A stretch of 64,000 bases of DNA from assembly GCF_000092125.1 (NCBI RefSeq), contig NC_014212.1, positions 1,570,001 to 1,634,000 on the forward strand. The letters are read 5' to 3'. The DNA is from Allomeiothermus silvanus DSM 9946 (lineage in GTDB: Bacteria > Deinococcota > Deinococci > Deinococcales > Thermaceae). The notes under the pieces are model-generated. The model did not search any database. It was not told the origin of the DNA and saw only the letters and a program-made list of their open reading frames with translations. Position 1 is the first letter of the stretch. Each line of letters opens with the position of its first letter. Shown in pieces: positions 2,472 through 10,232 of the stretch. Made by a program: the position numbers and the translations under genes.

Positions 2472-2548
2472 GGCTATGTAGCTCAGCTGGTTAGAGCACA
2501 CGACTCATAATCGTGGTGTCGGCGGTTCAAGTCCGCCCATAGCCACCA
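2472..2548 (+). tRNA. Elongator tRNA-Met (CAT); integration site of a mobile element
   Basis: 77 nt with CCA. Acceptor GGCTATG/CATAGCC, anticodon stem CACGA/TCGTG, loop CTCATAA. Overall shape matches bacterial elongator Met rather than the lysidine-modified tRNA-Ile(CAT). From the anticodon onward (2504-2549) the sequence is repeated exactly at 9529-9574, so the 3' half present here was supplied by the integrated element and the gene was rebuilt intact. Confidence 0.94.
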
Positions 2549-2549
2549 G
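2504..2549 (+). repeat. attL (tRNA-Met 3' half)
   Basis: 46 bp identical to 9529-9574. It spans from the anticodon loop through the CCA end plus one G. The match breaks one base upstream and one base downstream, which fixes the outer limits of the crossover region. Confidence 0.92.
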
Positions 2550-2561
2550 TCCAGGACGAGA

Positions 2562-2624: not shown

Positions 2625-3782
2625 TCAGGCTTTAGCGCGGGGGCCTAGCAGGTCCTCGGGGTCAATGATCCAGCCTTTGCGTTCGTGCTCGAGCACATGC
2701 CGGTACACCCCCAGGGTGATATTCGCGTTAGCGTGCCCCATCCGCTCGCTCACAAGCTCGAGGGGCGCACCGTTAGCCAGCATGTGTGAGCCGTAGCTAT
2801 GGCGCAGGTCATGCACCCGCAAGGGGCCTATGCCCAGCCGCTCGGTGATGCGCTTCAAGGCCCAGTTGGGCGCATGGGGATTGAGCGGCTTGCTCGGGTC
2901 GTTGCCGGGGAATACCCAGGCTTCCGGGCGAGGGTCCCCCAGCCGCTCGGCATACCAGGCCCGGTACTGTTGCAAGCGCTCCAGCGTCGCGTGAGGGATC
3001 GGCACGGTGCGCCCACTTGTGTGGGTCTTGGGCAGGGTCAGCACCCCGCGCTTGCCGTCATCGGTCCAAGCCCGCGTGACAGTAAGGGTTCCGGCCCCAA
3101 GGTCAAGGTCTTGCCACTGCAACCCCAAAGCCTCACCCCGGCGTAGCCCACAGGCCAGCATCAGCCTGAGGGCCAGGGCGGTTCTCGGGTCTTTGTGTTG
3201 GTCGAGGGCAGATAGCAAGGCGGCGATCTCGTGGGGCTCGAGGGCTCGCCCTACCTTGGCCTTGCTCTGACCTCGGGGAGTCTTGATGCGCACCGGGTCC
3301 ACCGGGTTGCGGTAAATGAGCTCCATGTCTAAAGCGTCCCGGAATACCTGCCACAACCGTTGCCGCACCATCTTCACGGTGCGGATGGAGTAGCGCTTGC
3401 TCAGCCCATCCAGCACCTCGCGGATGTGGGCGGGCTTCACCTCCTGCAAGGGCCTCGAGCCCAGGGCGTCAGGGGCCTCGGGGTCTTGGAGTGAGGGCAG
3501 GGCATAGCTCAGTTCGAGCCGATAGAGTTCAGCGGTGCGCGGCCTGACCTCTTTGGCCTTGCGCTCCAGCCACAGCCGGGCATACCCTGCTGTGGTGCTC
3601 CGGTCGCGGGTGAACTGGCCCCGCTCGGCTCGGGTCTTCAGGTCGCGGGCCTTGCGCTCGGCTTCAGCGGCGGTCTGAGCGTAGACACTGACCTGCACCG
3701 GTACGCCGTTCTCGCGTAGGGTCAGGCGTACCTCGAAGCGCCCATCCTTGCGTTTACGGGGTTTGTTCGTCAGTCGCGGCAT
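2625..3782 (-). CDS. int: Tyrosine recombinase/integrase of the tRNA-Met element
   Basis: Site-specific recombinase that would insert and excise the element. The 385-residue form (ATG at 3782) starts MPRLTNKPRKRK; a 12-codon longer frame opens at 3818. An AP2-like arm-binding N-terminus (GRFEVRLTLRENG, residues 14-40) is followed by a SAM-like core-binding domain (about 60-165) and the catalytic domain. The full catalytic set is present: Arg214 in GLRRGEALG, Lys252 in LPKTHTSGR, His324 and Arg327 in VHDLRHSYGSH, His350 in MGHANANITLG, and nucleophile Tyr360. The gene ends 76 bp from attL, the normal place for an integrase. The upstream gene overlaps its start, so both are probably made from one mRNA. 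Confidence 0.95.
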   Translation of the reverse strand: MPRLTNKPRKRKDGRFEVRLTLRENGVPVQVSVYAQTAAEAERKARDLKTRAERGQFTRDRSTTAGYARLWLERKAKEVRPRTAELYRLELSYALPSLQDPEAPDALGSRPLQEVKPAHIREVLDGLSKRYSIRTVKMVRQRLWQVFRDALDMELIYRNPVDPVRIKTPRGQSKAKVGRALEPHEIAALLSALDQHKDPRTALALRLMLACGLRRGEALGLQWQDLDLGAGTLTVTRAWTDDGKRGVLTLPKTHTSGRTVPIPHATLERLQQYRAWYAERLGDPRPEAWVFPGNDPSKPLNPHAPNWALKRITERLGIGPLRVHDLRHSYGSHMLANGAPLELVSERMGHANANITLGVYRHVLEHERKGWIIDPEDLLGPRAKA

Positions 3783-3999
3783 CCCGCACCTCCAAGAGTC
3801 CCAGCGCTCGAAGTCCAACCCTTACCACCTCACCCCGCTCGAGCGGCTTCAGGGCCTCGAAGCGCTCGAGCAGTTCTTGTGGGGCTCGTATCCACACCAA
3901 GCGCCCCCCTTCGCCCGGTTCCAACGGCTTCACCCCGAACCGTGCGGCTAGCTGTTCCTTGCTCCCCCTAACCTGTGGCAAGTTTGAACCTCTTGGCAT
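3754..3999 (-). CDS. Small ribbon-helix-helix-like regulator of the element
   Basis: 81 residues. After a basic start, KEQLAARFGVKP, the pattern RLVWIRAPQELLERFEAL followed by ERGEVVRVGLRAL looks like the strand-helix-helix of a ribbon-helix-helix DNA-binding protein; this is a fold guess from pattern, not a family match. The ATG at 3999 has no Shine-Dalgarno and lies 9 nt after a -10 box, so the mRNA is probably leaderless. A nested GGGGAAAT palindrome stands just upstream of its promoter, suggesting autoregulation. Its 3' end overlaps the integrase start by 29 bp, so it could set integrase levels or help excision. Confidence 0.65.
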   Translation of the reverse strand: MPRGSNLPQVRGSKEQLAARFGVKPLEPGEGGRLVWIRAPQELLERFEALKPLERGEVVRVGLRALGLLEVRDAATDEQTP

Positions 4000-4421: not shown

Positions 4422-4930
4422 ACGGTGGATACCTCCACCGCCCCAGGGTAAACCCGCACCTCACGGGCTTGAGGAAACTGTGCCGCCCAGCGCCCCACCA
4501 CCTGGAATAACCACCCTGTGGGGATGGTCTGGGCTATCCGGCTCGAGCCCAGGTCGAAGGCTAGCGTGACCTCCCCGCTCCCCTCGAGCCGGGGTAGGGC
4601 CTCGAGCAGGGCGAGCCAGGTGGGGAAGCTCCAAAACGCGGCGTTATCGGGCGGAATCGTTGCGCTATCCAACCCGTTAGCCGCTCGTGCCAGCCGCAAT
4701 ACCCGGCGTTCTCCGGTGTGGTGGGCTTCCACGCTCACACCGTGCGTCCCGGCGTGGTGTTTCATCCACAGCGACAGGCTCGCCGGGTTAGCGGGCCAGG
4801 GCTCCACCCGATGGGGCTCGAGGGCGGCGTATAGCTCGGTAGGGGTACCCTGCCAGGGGCCGGCCTCGAGCAGTCGGTGCAGAGTAGCGGGCAGGTGGGG
4901 AAACCTAGATGGCAAGGCAGCCCCCCTCAA
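4406..4930 (-). CDS. Accessory replication-linked protein with winged-helix-like N-terminus
   Basis: Up to 174 residues; start uncertain, with TTG at 4930 or TTG at 4915, both overlapping the end of the gene upstream. Residues 25-80 (TPTELYAALEPHRVEPWPANPASLSLWMKHHA, then GVSVEAHHTGERRVLRL) resemble the small winged-helix module often found at the end of phage and plasmid primase-helicases. The rest is not recognised. It is the third gene in the tightly packed primase operon, so a role in element replication is likely. No membrane segments. Confidence 0.6.
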   Translation of the reverse strand: MRGAALPSRFPHLPATLHRLLEAGPWQGTPTELYAALEPHRVEPWPANPASLSLWMKHHAGTHGVSVEAHHTGERRVLRLARAANGLDSATIPPDNAAFWSFPTWLALLEALPRLEGSGEVTLAFDLGSSRIAQTIPTGWLFQVVGRWAAQFPQAREVRVYPGAVEVSTVWPLG

Positions 4931-5417
4931 GCTGGATCAGCGTCACATTGCGGGTCTTCTCGGGCCAGCGACCGGGCCACTGGGCCAAGACGGACACAAT
5001 GCCTTCGGGCTTGGGGTACTCCCGCTCGAGGGTCGCGCACAGCCACCGGAGCAGCGAGCGGGTTTCCTCGAGGTTCAGAGCCTCGAGGGATTGATAGCCC
5101 ACCGCTCGCCCGTTGATATCAACCCGAACGACGGGAGCTTGCAACTCCCACAAGCGGTGGGCGAGCTGGTCGGCTACCTGCTCGAGGTAGGCCCAGGGGC
5201 TACCGCCCTGGGCCGCCTCACCCCCCAACTCCTGTGGCCCTAAAACGCCCCCTGCCGCTTCCGCCAGCCGGAGTAGGTCGGGCTTCCACAGTCGGATGCT
5301 CGCTTCAAGGCCAGCACCGACCCCCTTGGGGCGCAGGATGAGGGCCCCCTGAACACAGGCCAGGGTGGCTCCTCGAGCGCTGAGGGTGCGTAGCAGGCCT
5401 GCCAGGTCAGAAGACAT
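4905..5417 (-). CDS. TubC-N-like small protein of the primase operon
   Basis: 170 residues from the ATG at 5417, which overlaps the end of the primase gene by 11 bp, so the two are translationally coupled. Residues 1-50 (LAGLLRTLSARGATLACVQGALILRPKG, then IRLWKPDLLRLAEA) match the pattern of the TubC N-terminal docking fold, a helix-hairpin-helix module common in plasmid and phage replication neighbourhoods. The C-terminal 100 residues are not recognised. It is probably an accessory factor for the primase-helicase encoded just upstream; the function is inferred from context only. Confidence 0.6.
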   Translation of the reverse strand: MSSDLAGLLRTLSARGATLACVQGALILRPKGVGAGLEASIRLWKPDLLRLAEAAGGVLGPQELGGEAAQGGSPWAYLEQVADQLAHRLWELQAPVVRVDINGRAVGYQSLEALNLEETRSLLRWLCATLEREYPKPEGIVSVLAQWPGRWPEKTRNVTLIQLEGGCLAI

Positions 5418-8400
5418 CGGCGTCCTCCAAATCCAAATCAACGCGGCTACCCCTTATATCTGTAGAAGTGGGAACAGTGGGAACAGTGGGTTTTGTGCCG
5501 TCCTGGACGTGGTTTAGGCTGTTCCCAGTTTTTTGAGTGTTCCCACTCGCGAGTGGGAACACCTGTGAAGCCGCATCAGAAGCGGGGCTTTGTTCCCACT
5601 CCTGAGTGGGAACACCCCGTTTAGTGGGAACAGGGTTTGTGCCGTCCTGGACGGCGCTGTGCTCATTGTTCCCACTGTTCCCACTTTTTGCGATATATAC
5701 CCCCGCCAGGTGGATTGCTCGGATTAGCCCACTCCCGATTCTCACCCGGGCTTGGTACCGGGTTACCCCTGCCTCCACCCGAACGTGGATAACCCCCCGC
5801 TCTGCCAGCCGCTTCCACAACGTGCGCTCGGTGGGCAGCGGCTCGCCCGACTCGTTCGCCAGCCGCCCCAGCACGGTATAGGCGGCGGTCGGGTCCAGGT
5901 ACAGCCCGTGGACTTCGGGGTCATCGGGTAGCCAGCCGATCTGTGGCCCGAGGGGCTCCCACACGCCGCGTGCGTCGGGGTGGCCACTGGTGGTTTCGCG
6001 GTACCGCCAGCCCCAACGGGCGGGGTCGGGTAGGTGATCCTCTATGTCCCGCCCGGGTCGCCAGTTCAAAGGCACGAGGTGGCCCCGACCCATGCGTAGA
6101 GCGGAGAAAAGCAAGGGGCCGAAGCGCTCCACCGGGTCAGCCCCGCGAAGATACTCCCCCTGACCCTGAAGCACCTGCTCGAGCGCCTCGAGCACCTCGC
6201 CCTCGCCCTCGAGGTCACACCCCACGGTGGCGGTGTACTCCTGGTATAGCTCCCATAGGGCGTGCAGCCGGGCCAGGGCGTCGGTCACCCGCCCGTGGAG
6301 GGCGTTGTAGCGGGGTCGCAGGCCCTCTATCCGGCTCCGCAAGCGGTCGCGGTGGGCCTCGAGGTCTCGGGCCAGCCAGCGCACCCAGCCGCTCAGGGCA
6401 CGGGCATACGCCCCCTCACGGGCCAGGGTTTGGGCCTCGCTGAGCCGATCCAGGCGTACCTCGCCCCGCCCCAACTCGAGGAAGAGGCAGCGGGCTCGCA
6501 CGCTGTGCCCGGGCGGCACGTCCTCGCCGGTGAGGAGCAGCGAACCACGGGGGGGCTTATCCCCCGCCAAAGAGCCGTCAGCCCGCATCCGCCCCCGGCC
6601 TGTGCCGTTGCCCTGAGAGCGCAGCAACCGGGCGGCTTTGGCCTGTAACTCCTTCTGCTTCTGCTCGCTCGCTTGAGGGGCGTAATCGTCCACCAAGAGC
6701 GGCGTGTCCATACCCGTGAACGCGAGGGCCTCGAGGGCATTGGTGGTGGTCTCCCAGCTCGCGGGCGGGGTGTCGTGATGGCCCCACAAAGATTGAATGA
6801 CCAGGGCCAGGCTGGTTTTGCGGCTTCCCGTCGGCCCCGCCAAATATAGCGAGTACGGGCTATGGCCCAGCGGAGCGCCCAAGGCATAGAGCAGTAAAGG
6901 CACGGTGACCCGTGAGGGGGCCACCTCGCGCAGGCTCCACAAGGTGCGGATAGCCTCACGCTCAGCTTCGTCCTCGGGGGGGTCGGGCAGAGCAAAACCC
7001 TCGAATACCCGCCCCGGCTGGACCTCGAGGCCCTCCACGCCCCCGTTGGCTCCGATGCCCCCGCCAGCGTGGAGGTACACCCACTGCCCGTCGACCTTCG
7101 CCCAACCCAGGTGGCGGTACACGGTAGTGCGGCGTAGTCCCTCCAGGCTCAAGAACTGGATCGCGGCGCGCAGGTGGTCGCGGTTGGACTGCCCGGGCAG
7201 CACCACGGCCTCGCTTCCCCAATGGCGGGCGGTCCAGTTCATGCCGGCAAACTCGCCCGCCCTCACCCAGGCCGCAGGCAGCGGGCGCCCTGTGGAGGTG
7301 TAGCCTTTGATCTCAAACAGGGTCTCGTTCTCGAGCCCGTCGGTTGCGGCTATTTCGCGCTCGATGATGGCAGCGAAGTTGGAAAGCGGGTAGTAGCCCA
7401 CCCCCTGCCCCTCACCCTGCTTTTCCGGCTTGGCGGCCCAAATCTGCCCGCGCTCGATCTTGTAGCGGGGTTTTCCGAGCACCAGCCCACCTCCGGTGCG
7501 GCCATCCAGGGGGCAGGTGGGCGCTTTCGCAGCCTCGCCGCCGGGGTCGTAGGGGTTGCTCGCCCGGGCTTTCTCGGCGGGTGGCTCGAGCGGGGCCGCC
7601 TGTCCGTACCTGAGGCCGTCCCTCGCGGTGGCCTCAGCCTCGAGGGGGGGCAGCCCGGCCTGCACCGCAGCCGCAACCAGGGCGGCGGCGGCCTGCTCGG
7701 GGTCGAGTCCCAGGTGAAGGTATCCGCCAATCAACCGGGCGTAGCCCAACAGGGTGTTATGCCTCTGCCCCTGTGGAGCAGCCGCTACCCGCTCACAGGC
7801 CCAGCGCAAGAGGCCCTCCAGCCTTCGGGTGTGGGTACCAGCCGCGATACCCCGAAGCCGGGCGGGTTGGTACTCAGGCGGTGGCGGTGGGGGATCGGGC
7901 AACAACCGAGCTAGCAGCCCCTCGGGGGCTAGAGGCAGTTCAGCCGGGGGTAGCAAGGGTAGTTCCCAAACGTAGGCCCCATTAGGCAACGTGGTCGGGG
8001 CAGCCGCCAAATACGCCTTACCTAAGCCGCGTAAGTCCACCCCCGGCAGCTTCCGCGCGCTGCTGGTGAGGCTTCCTACCAACCCGGCGGGCAGCCGCAG
8101 GAAGACATGCACCCCGCCCCGAGGGGTTCGTTGCCGGGGGGCCTCGCCTAGCTCGGGGTACTCGGCTAGCAGCGCGCCCCAGGCTGAGGGGACGTCGCAG
8201 TCGAGCGCCAGCGTTTCAGCGGGGGGCAGGATGCCCACCCCAGCCCCGGGCGCGGCCTGCCACCAGCGGCGCAGCACCTCGGGGTCGGTGCTGGCGTCCC
8301 TCAACCCGCTAGGGACTAAACGCCCGTGCGGGCGCTTCTCGCCGGGAAGCAGTGGCAACACGGGGTAGCCCATCCCAGCGTACTCGAGGGCGGTAGCAGA

Positions 8401-8433
8401 TGTGCTATACTTTTCATAGCTACGCATAGCCAA
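5407..8433 (-). CDS. Bifunctional primase-polymerase fused to a superfamily 3-like helicase
   Basis: 1008 residues, the replication enzyme of the element. Residues 15-160 form an archaeo-eukaryotic primase-polymerase domain, with acidic pair LALDCDVP (Asp78, Asp80), TPRGGVHVF (His109) and GVDLRGLG. A helical primase-associated region follows (about 195-280). The C-terminal half is an ATPase: Walker A GPTGSRKTS at about 533-541 and Walker B LLVDDY at 579-584. It would make primers and unwind DNA for the element. Residues about 917-989 are low complexity (repeated VPT and GNS); the DNA under them carries ten copies of a 9-mer in both orientations, so this part seems shaped by a DNA function. 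ATG at 8433, 3 bp after the excisionase gene stop. Confidence 0.9.
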   Translation of the reverse strand: MAMRSYEKYSTSATALEYAGMGYPVLPLLPGEKRPHGRLVPSGLRDASTDPEVLRRWWQAAPGAGVGILPPAETLALDCDVPSAWGALLAEYPELGEAPRQRTPRGGVHVFLRLPAGLVGSLTSSARKLPGVDLRGLGKAYLAAAPTTLPNGAYVWELPLLPPAELPLAPEGLLARLLPDPPPPPPEYQPARLRGIAAGTHTRRLEGLLRWACERVAAAPQGQRHNTLLGYARLIGGYLHLGLDPEQAAAALVAAAVQAGLPPLEAEATARDGLRYGQAAPLEPPAEKARASNPYDPGGEAAKAPTCPLDGRTGGGLVLGKPRYKIERGQIWAAKPEKQGEGQGVGYYPLSNFAAIIEREIAATDGLENETLFEIKGYTSTGRPLPAAWVRAGEFAGMNWTARHWGSEAVVLPGQSNRDHLRAAIQFLSLEGLRRTTVYRHLGWAKVDGQWVYLHAGGGIGANGGVEGLEVQPGRVFEGFALPDPPEDEAEREAIRTLWSLREVAPSRVTVPLLLYALGAPLGHSPYSLYLAGPTGSRKTSLALVIQSLWGHHDTPPASWETTTNALEALAFTGMDTPLLVDDYAPQASEQKQKELQAKAARLLRSQGNGTGRGRMRADGSLAGDKPPRGSLLLTGEDVPPGHSVRARCLFLELGRGEVRLDRLSEAQTLAREGAYARALSGWVRWLARDLEAHRDRLRSRIEGLRPRYNALHGRVTDALARLHALWELYQEYTATVGCDLEGEGEVLEALEQVLQGQGEYLRGADPVERFGPLLFSALRMGRGHLVPLNWRPGRDIEDHLPDPARWGWRYRETTSGHPDARGVWEPLGPQIGWLPDDPEVHGLYLDPTAAYTVLGRLANESGEPLPTERTLWKRLAERGVIHVRVEAGVTRYQARVRIGSGLIRAIHLAGVYIAKSGNSGNNEHSAVQDGTNPVPTKRGVPTQEWEQSPASDAASQVFPLASGNTQKTGNSLNHVQDGTKPTVPTVPTSTDIRGSRVDLDLEDADVF
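5468..5684. repeat. Iteron-like cluster of TGTTCCCAC, candidate replication origin
   Basis: Nine exact and one near copy of TGTTCCCAC (or its complement GTGGGAACA) begin at 5468, 5477, 5519 (one mismatch), 5538, 5553, 5591, 5606, 5624, 5667 and 5676. Some are tandem, some face each other; 5536-5563 is a long palindrome around GCGC. An 18-bp direct repeat with core CGTCCAGGACG (minus strand) is at 5492-5509 and 5636-5653. A one-mismatch DnaA box (TTATCCACG, minus) lies at 5784-5792. Since the copies fall in different reading frames, the repeat is conserved as DNA, not protein. Confidence 0.65.
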
Positions 8434-8436
8434 CCC

Positions 8437-8643
8437 CTACTCGCCCCCGCCCTGCCCGGCGGGGTAATTCTCGTGCCCCTCGAGCCATTCGCGTAGAGCG
8501 CTCGCGGGAATCAACCAACGGGAACCGAGCTTGCGAGCGGGCAAAACGCCGAGACGTACGTACTTATCAATCGTGTTTACATGGAGTCCGAGTAGCTCTG
8601 CCACCTCTTTGCGGGAGTAGGCAAGTTTTTTGTTGTCCAACAC
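8437..8643 (-). CDS. Excisionase-family HTH protein
   Basis: 68 residues. The pattern AYSRKEVAELLGLHVNTIDKYVRLGVLPARKLGSRWLIP is a MerR-like winged helix-turn-helix of the HTH_17/excisionase type. Such proteins bend DNA at attachment sites or control replication and integrase genes. Start is GTG at 8643. Its Shine-Dalgarno (CACGGAGG, minus) is the closing arm of a hairpin and is followed by TTTT, so translation, transcription or both may be controlled there. The stop is 3 bp before the primase start, so the two genes form an operon. Confidence 0.85.
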   Translation of the reverse strand: MLDNKKLAYSRKEVAELLGLHVNTIDKYVRLGVLPARKLGSRWLIPASALREWLEGHENYPAGQGGGE

Positions 8644-9528: not shown

Positions 9529-9574
9529 CTCATAATCGTGGTGTCGGCGGTTCAAGTCCGCCCATAGCCACCAG
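9529..9574 (+). repeat. attR, displaced 3' half of tRNA-Met
   Basis: 46 bp identical to 2504-2549. It lacks the tRNA 5' half and cannot make a tRNA. It marks the right boundary of the element and retains the host's original terminator just beyond it. Confidence 0.92.
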
Positions 9575-9576
9575 CC

Positions 9577-9603
9577 CCGGAAGCCCAGCGCTTCCGGATT
9601 TTT
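9577..9603 (+). terminator. Original host terminator of the tRNA-Met unit
   Basis: CCGGAAGC (9577-9584) and GCTTCCGG (9590-9597) form an 8-bp stem followed by ATTTTTATT. Before integration this lay directly after tRNA-Met. Confidence 0.78.
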
Positions 9604-9795: not shown

Positions 9796-10232
9796 CTACT
9801 CCATCAGCCCATAGGCCACCAGCCCCAAGACTTTGGCCCGCCGCCCCTTCCACCCTAGCCCCTGCTGCAATCCCCGGAAGATCTCCTCAATCCCCTGCCG
9901 CAACGCCCTCTTTCCCTCCGAGTCCACACCAAAACGGGCGTAAAACCTCCCCCATCGGCGCACCATCTGCACCGCAGTGGACCCCTCCAGCCCGAGTCTC
10001 GTCACGAATCCAGTACTTTCCTTGCCGCGCAGCAGGCGTCGAACAGCACCCCCTCTTCCTCCCGGCCCCACTCCAAAAGGGAGCCGGCTAGGCCCAGTTT
10101 GCTTTCCTCCCCAGCAGGAAGGGACCCGACGCCGACCCCTGGCGTCGGTCCAGGCCAGGACCACCAGGCTGAAGCGACCCGTCCTTGGGGCTCTTCAGGC
10201 GTTGGAGGCCGAGCTGGCCTGAGCGACAGCAA
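9796..10232 (-). pseudogene. Frameshifted DDE transposase remnant
   Basis: Two overlapping minus frames share the features of one transposase. One frame reads VLAWTDARGRRRVP near its start and QGIEEIFRGLQQGLGWKGRR near its end. Between them the matching text is in another frame (KLGLAGSLLEWGREEEGV, then LFDACC). At least two frameshifts are needed to join them, so the gene is dead. It resembles the central and C-terminal parts of IS4/IS701-type transposases, but differs from the intact element at 13900. No terminal repeats are found. Confidence 0.45.

Follow-up and report, generated by a model that had tools for sequence, protein, structure and literature searches.

Can the gene of a replication protein also carry the origin on which that protein acts? 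The question is raised by a cluster of 9-bp repeats in the 3' end of a primase gene of Allomeiothermus silvanus DSM 9946, proposed as a candidate origin in an initial annotation of the window (the whole 64,000-nucleotide stretch of DNA analysed). The gene lies in a 7.0-kb element integrated at tRNA-Met in the 3.72-Mb genome. Its product combines a PrimPol domain with a DUF927 ATPase domain (PF06048, E = 3.4e-7), the latter present in 12 of 12 homologues, and a C-terminal winged helix followed by the iteron-encoded tail (Table 1). Sequence comparison supports the proposal: the array very probably represents an iteron replication origin of the integrated element, bound by the element's own PrimPol-helicase. 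The next operon gene appears to start within the 3' end of the primase gene, leaving no intergenic space, which could explain why the array is located inside the gene. The element further encodes an 81-amino acid protein without a Pfam or PHROG match above curated cut-offs, which is common to integrated elements and the circular plasmid L005 described below.

Table 1. Features of the element and of the repeat array (window coordinates unless a locus is named).
Feature	Position	Strand	Remarks
Candidate origin	5467..5685		Dyad-symmetric 10-iteron array (consensus AGTGGGAACA) with two palindromic S sites, in 3' end of primase-helicase gene
Iteron 1	5676..5684	+	Outer pair, forward (F) on coding strand
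Iteron 2	5667..5675	+	Outer pair, F
S site 1	5643..5653		CGTCCAGGACG palindromic core, in 18-bp direct repeat 5636-5653
Iteron 3	5624..5632	-	Reverse (R)
Iteron 4	5606..5614	-	R
Iteron 5	5591..5599	+	F
Iteron 6	5553..5561	-	R
Iteron 7	5538..5546	+	F
Iteron 8	5519..5527	+	F, one mismatch (TGTTCCCAG)
S site 2	5499..5509		CGTCCAGGACG core, in 18-bp direct repeat 5492-5509
Iteron 9	5477..5485	-	Outer pair, R
Iteron 10	5468..5476	-	Outer pair, R
Primase-helicase gene	5407..8433	-	PrimPol, DUF927/Cch-like helicase, C-terminal winged helix, iteron-encoded tail
PrimPol domain	7933..8391	-	Residues 15-167; PF09250, E = 7.7e-31
C-terminal winged helix	5707..5892	-	About residues 848-909; proposed iteron reader; modelled fragment
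Arg896 codon	5746..5748	-	Wing
HTH_17/excisionase-like protein	8437..8643	-	
Next operon gene	4905..5417	-	Start read as ATG at 5417
81-amino acid protein	3754..3999	-	Also on circular plasmid L005 (4998-5240)
Tyrosine integrase	2625..3818	-	PF00589, E = 2.4e-30
att repeat	2504..2556		3' end of tRNA-Met (2472-2548)
Other att repeat	9529..9581		53 bp, 96%, 7,025 bp away
S-like GTCCAGGAC sites after CCA ends	2543-2575; L070 5253 and 5839; L071 5795; L153		

The repeat cluster is compact, balanced between strands and confined to a single site. The ten copies initially reported at 5468-5684 form a real cluster, but only nine are exact copies of TGTTCCCAC while the tenth (iteron 8) differs at one position. 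Dinucleotide shuffles of the window contain 0.44 +/- 0.67 exact copies with a maximum of 3, and no further copy is found in the 64-kb window outside the cluster. Five iterons lie on each strand and begin in two of the three codon phases across residues 917-989, encoding SGN/TGN/EWE and VPT/FPL peptides, so the description of repeats in both orientations and different reading frames was correct. Neither the doubled word TGTTCCCACTGTTCCCAC nor the hairpin pair TGTTCCCACT-N(1-13)-AGTGGGAACA recurs elsewhere in the 3.72-Mb genome, which rules out a host-wide dispersed repeat for both. As is general for iteron replicons, the repeats of the array are unique to the replicon.

The array is organized as a mirror-symmetric dyad, a feature missed in the initial annotation. 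On the coding strand, iterons and S sites follow the order F F S R R F R F F S R R and the spacings between iteron starts are exactly mirrored (9|44|18|14|39|14|18|44|9), an arrangement that arose once when sites were placed at random 200,000 times with the ends fixed and a minimum spacing imposed. Identical spacing is present in the homologous loci L070, L069 and L071 and nearly identical spacing in L068, L005 and L073. The two 18-bp direct repeats with a palindromic core are real as well, but rather than flanking the cluster as first described, the two CGTCCAGGACG S sites sit inside it, each separating an outer repeat pair from the six inner repeats. The S site and the A-rich stretch following it are kept in most Thermaceae arrays. 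AT content is 37-40% at the array centre, where no AT-rich core of the kind known from PICI origins was found, and reaches maxima of 0.53-0.57 at both edges.

S-like sequences also occur apart from arrays. Immediately 3' of the CCA end, some structural RNA genes, the element's att tRNA among them, have a GTCCAGGACGAGAAAAACC stretch resembling the S site. At some tRNA or tRNA-like genes of Thermaceae, GTCCAGGAC comes right after the CCA and is succeeded by an A-rich stretch and a terminator-like hairpin. Control counts rule out the S site as a genome-wide enriched motif, with 36 occurrences of GTCCAGGAC against 128 for the reversed control and a genome-wide CGTCCWGGACG count equal to its control.

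Homologous Thermaceae loci preserve the architecture of the array while its word changes. All eight DUF927-type loci with full arrays, the window included, possess 10 iterons in a 5+5 arrangement over ca. 210 bp at the same place. Words differ among loci and are uniform within a locus, with all ten repeats changing in concert (GTGGGAACA, CCGGGAACA, CCGGTAAC). AGTGGGAACA is shared by the window and genome G031, ACCGGGAACA by G001, G025 and G034 and ACCGGTAAC by G009, G003 and G015. Iteron identity is 0.967 within a locus and 0.785 at the same array position between loci. The mirrored order and the concerted word changes rule out a simple tandem or REP-type repeat. Arrays with other words are found at the same position in Thermaceae elements whose helicase is of another type, including those of the Ppol/Hel type, and where several such elements were found in one genome their words differ.

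Several of these loci merit separate description. In L007/L070 (G031:C1:209341-212326), which has the window's word, PrimPol and helicase are encoded in two frames and the array is near-perfect. The genome of the window harbours another PrimPol element (L130, G000:C1:1323000-1336000), which carries the word AACCACCGCA in an array at 9812-10066, in the 3' end of a 792-codon frame without a Pfam match, and its S sites are likewise 144 bp apart. At about 560 kb on the same contig (L144, 1440-1551; G000:C1), six TGTTGGGA-type copies and an S site are present with no helicase gene recognised beside them, possibly an orphan remnant of a TGTTGGGA-type array.

An array of this kind could serve control instead of initiation. 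Iteron arrays in plasmids often have both roles and inverted pairs look like dimer operators, so the array might be an operator or a copy-control handcuffing locus at which Rep or another factor represses the operon or limits copy number. Yet no iteron is located near the upstream end of the operon or elsewhere in the 64-kb window, and ten mirrored sites over 219 bp, conserved across phyla, go far beyond what an operator needs. We consider this reading improbable; an operator near the promoter and integrase arm sites are ruled out as no copies are present there.

Co-variation with the word points to the helicase itself as the reader of the iterons. Among the 570 columns of an alignment of 13 sequences, that of wing residue 896 alone corresponds one-to-one with the word: arginine accompanies GGGAAC (6 sequences), valine GGTAAC (3), glycine CCCAAC (3) and alanine CCCTAC (1). 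The runner-up column also lies in the wing. On a tree built without the winged helix and the tail, the GGT word appears separately at least three times, each time with a change from arginine to valine. An AlphaFold model of a fragment of the protein (pLDDT 89.8) contains helices 527-541 and 548-557 and wing strands 574-578 and 581-588, and places residue 896 in the first wing strand after the recognition helix. The most likely iteron binder is the helicase's own C-terminal winged helix. Joint exchange of wing and array as a single cassette would produce the same pattern as stepwise co-evolution, and in both cases the reader remains linked to its site.

The HTH protein encoded upstream, suggested as binder in the initial annotation, does not track the word. 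HTH_17 proteins of L079 and L083 are 73-75% identical and accompany quite different words (GCGGTAGATG and AAATGTCAC), which rules them out as iteron readers, and no HTH_17 homologue was detected in L070, which shares the window's word. The same observation bears on the proposal that the array serves in partition (as a centromere-like site) or in DNA packaging and is read by a different element protein, for which the HTH_17 protein and the conserved 81-amino acid protein, the latter also found on a circular plasmid, would be available. The word tracks the helicase wing and neither of these two proteins, and no ParA-like or terminase gene was identified among the scanned element proteins, some small ORFs of which lack annotation. 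A partition or packaging site therefore seems highly improbable.

Conservation resides in the DNA sites and not in the encoded tail. Alignment of homologues, the check suggested initially, shows a variable protein tail. The array is retained with its 5+5 composition, spacing and dyad, and its word changes in all copies together. Between the window and the G031 locus with the same word, identity is 0.98 for iterons and 1.00 for S sites but 0.52 for spacers, which are thus less conserved than the rest of the gene (0.685 for the helicase body), indicating constraint on DNA sites rather than on the tail. In a more degenerate group with the word TCCCAACA or TCCCTACA, a stop codon cuts the tail and the repeats run on beyond it in most members; such truncation with continuing repeats is present in L012, L013, L026 and L027. 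The TCCCAACA-type loci L074-L078 have more degenerate arrays, several with two in tandem, the second beyond the stop codon.

Relatives beyond Thermaceae extend this pattern. Collection scans with a single protein as query returned no matches, while an alignment-based search of one-per-species genomes identified 18 loci, several in other phyla. Intragenic arrays are present in bins assigned to Methylothermaceae (L096), Armatimonadota (L098) and Bacillota (L100). In Thiocapsa (L107) and in bins assigned to Deltaproteobacteria (L109) and Methylococcaceae (L106), the array lies shortly past the 3' end of the gene. Taxon names of metagenome bins are possibly wrong for mobile contigs. L107 and L109 possess ten dyad-ordered iterons outside the helicase gene, and in L106 no stop-to-stop frame of at least 60 codons covers the array. 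No comparable array was found in L108 and two human-gut phage fragments with related helicases, or at the helicase 3' end of the actinobacterial plasmid relatives L089-L091 and the gut phage fragments L088 and L092. Since the tail is variable or truncated while the array persists, even outside the gene in distant relatives, it is the DNA and not the peptide that is kept. The iteron-encoded tail is probably a tolerated by-product, as suggested initially.

These comparisons also bear on selection at the protein level, in which a low-complexity SGN/VPT tail would have arisen from duplicated codons. The repeats do form part of an open gene, and tails of the same length are in some cases alike in protein, but the two orientations and two codon phases, the truncated tails, the arrays outside the gene and the poorly conserved spacers make this account scarcely credible. 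RNA or DNA hairpins (an attenuator or a pRN1-like stem-loop origin) instead of protein-read iterons have next to no probability: there are two perfect or near-perfect hairpins (5538-5561 and 5591-5614) and a stem-loop 3' of rep serves the PrimPol replicon pRN1 (PMC4234260), yet the outer copies are direct pairs unable to pair with a neighbour and loop lengths vary among lineages while the dyad order of sites stays constant.

A circular relative provides the strongest indirect support for gene and array sufficing for replication. Contig L005 (G003:C26) has an exact 127-bp end overlap, which is what assemblers leave on circles, and appears to be a 5,150-bp circular plasmid. The PrimPol-helicase is its only large gene, the array is in place, an HTH_17 ORF and the 81-amino acid protein are present and no integrase homologue was found in it. 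The initial proposal of a candidate origin inside its own primase gene is supported by this plasmid and by the array being kept across homologues.

With the array as an iteron origin, replication of the element could proceed as follows. The integrase would excise the element and the PrimPol-helicase would bind the ten iterons via its C-terminal winged helix, with wing residue 896 likely helping to read the middle bases of the iteron. On the mirrored array, two hexameric helicases would come to lie head to head and may then melt the origin and unwind it both ways, leading to bidirectional replication with synthesis primed by the fused PrimPol or by host enzymes. The PrimPol step is the least certain part of this mechanism. 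In ICETh2, deletion of Ppol did not stop the suggested replication (PMC7693054), so the PrimPol half may be dispensable.

The array is a well-supported candidate origin. Mobile elements of Thermaceae with PrimPol, among them the ICETh2 type, over whose replication there has been debate, are thereby provided with a concrete origin candidate and, in residue 896, with a candidate for the position that reads it. The loci amount to naturally matched initiator-origin pairs whose specificity appears to have changed repeatedly through a single position, so that the evolution of plasmid compatibility and of origin recognition becomes open to direct tests. As the coding sequence appears to be subordinate to the 219-bp candidate origin, comparative annotation of the protein tail would be misleading. 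Chances are about even that PrimPol/DUF927 replicons constitute a widespread, unnoticed origin class with a mirrored ten-iteron dyad in or outside the rep 3' end across phyla and specificity largely set by residue 896 (R, V, G, A). If specificity is indeed largely set by the wing residue, origin sequence and plasmid compatibility would be predictable from the protein. No description of this array in Thermaceae elements was found in the literature searched, coverage of which is partial, and novelty is accordingly provisional.

Phage P4 possesses a second, in-gene origin. Its alpha protein, a primase-helicase, is described in PMC4234260 as binding origin repeats through a winged-helix domain, but alpha has a DnaG-type primase and belongs to a different helicase family. 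The pRN1 protein ORF904 also combines PrimPol, helicase and C-terminal winged helix in one protein with an origin at the 3' end, although that origin consists of one long stem-loop 3' of the gene instead of iterons (PMC4234260). In lambda, ori iterons lie inside gene O and bind its own initiator (PMC5043065). The lambda origin has a 40-bp A+T-rich neighbour and 19-bp sites for O dimers, in contrast to ten 9-10-bp sites in the 3' end of a primase-helicase gene, and its initiator is unrelated: no O-type match is present in the window protein, for which Pfam gives only Prim-Pol and DUF927.

Within Thermaceae, ICETh2 of Thermus thermophilus HB27 is likewise a tRNA-integrated element with PrimPol and helicase, and the window's element shares with the ICETh2 type a tyrosine integrase at a tRNA with att repeats. 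In ICETh2, Hel is encoded separately and belongs to another helicase type; Meiothermus proteins in which PrimPol and DUF927 are fused were noted in the same paper, whose text contains neither 'iteron' nor 'repeats' (PMC7693054). The Thermus Ppol/Hel-type loci L119, L120 and L122, which have the ICETh2 architecture, carry iteron-like arrays in the 3' end of the helicase frame that represent candidate origins for ICETh2-type elements.

Close similarity also exists to the DUF927 initiator helicases of SaPIbov1 and SCCmec. The best Foldseek matches in the PDB are SCCmec Cch (5dgk, 1.2e-13) and SaPIbov1 Rep (8tch, 1.7e-13), with probability 1.00 and TM-scores of 0.56-0.66, and these proteins have in common with the window protein the DUF927 helicase fold and a C-terminal, presumably DNA-binding domain; their iterons, too, are found around the 3' end of rep. 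The C-terminal domain of SaPI Reps recognises the iterons that directly follow their own gene, and the proteins appear to bind as two hexamers, and the C-terminal domain of Cch2 binds its putative origin (PMC7581432). From this fold match and iteron binding we infer attachment via the winged helix and two hexamers on the dyad. PICI origins contain two iteron sets around an AT-rich region (PMC6092414), an arrangement replaced here by one mirrored ten-site dyad with S sites. PrimPol and helicase form one protein in the present system, and its array lies inside the gene, not 3' of it as in PICIs and SaPIs; in L106, L107 and L109 the array is directly downstream. The array probably represents a variant of the SaPIbov1 Rep/Cch-type system.
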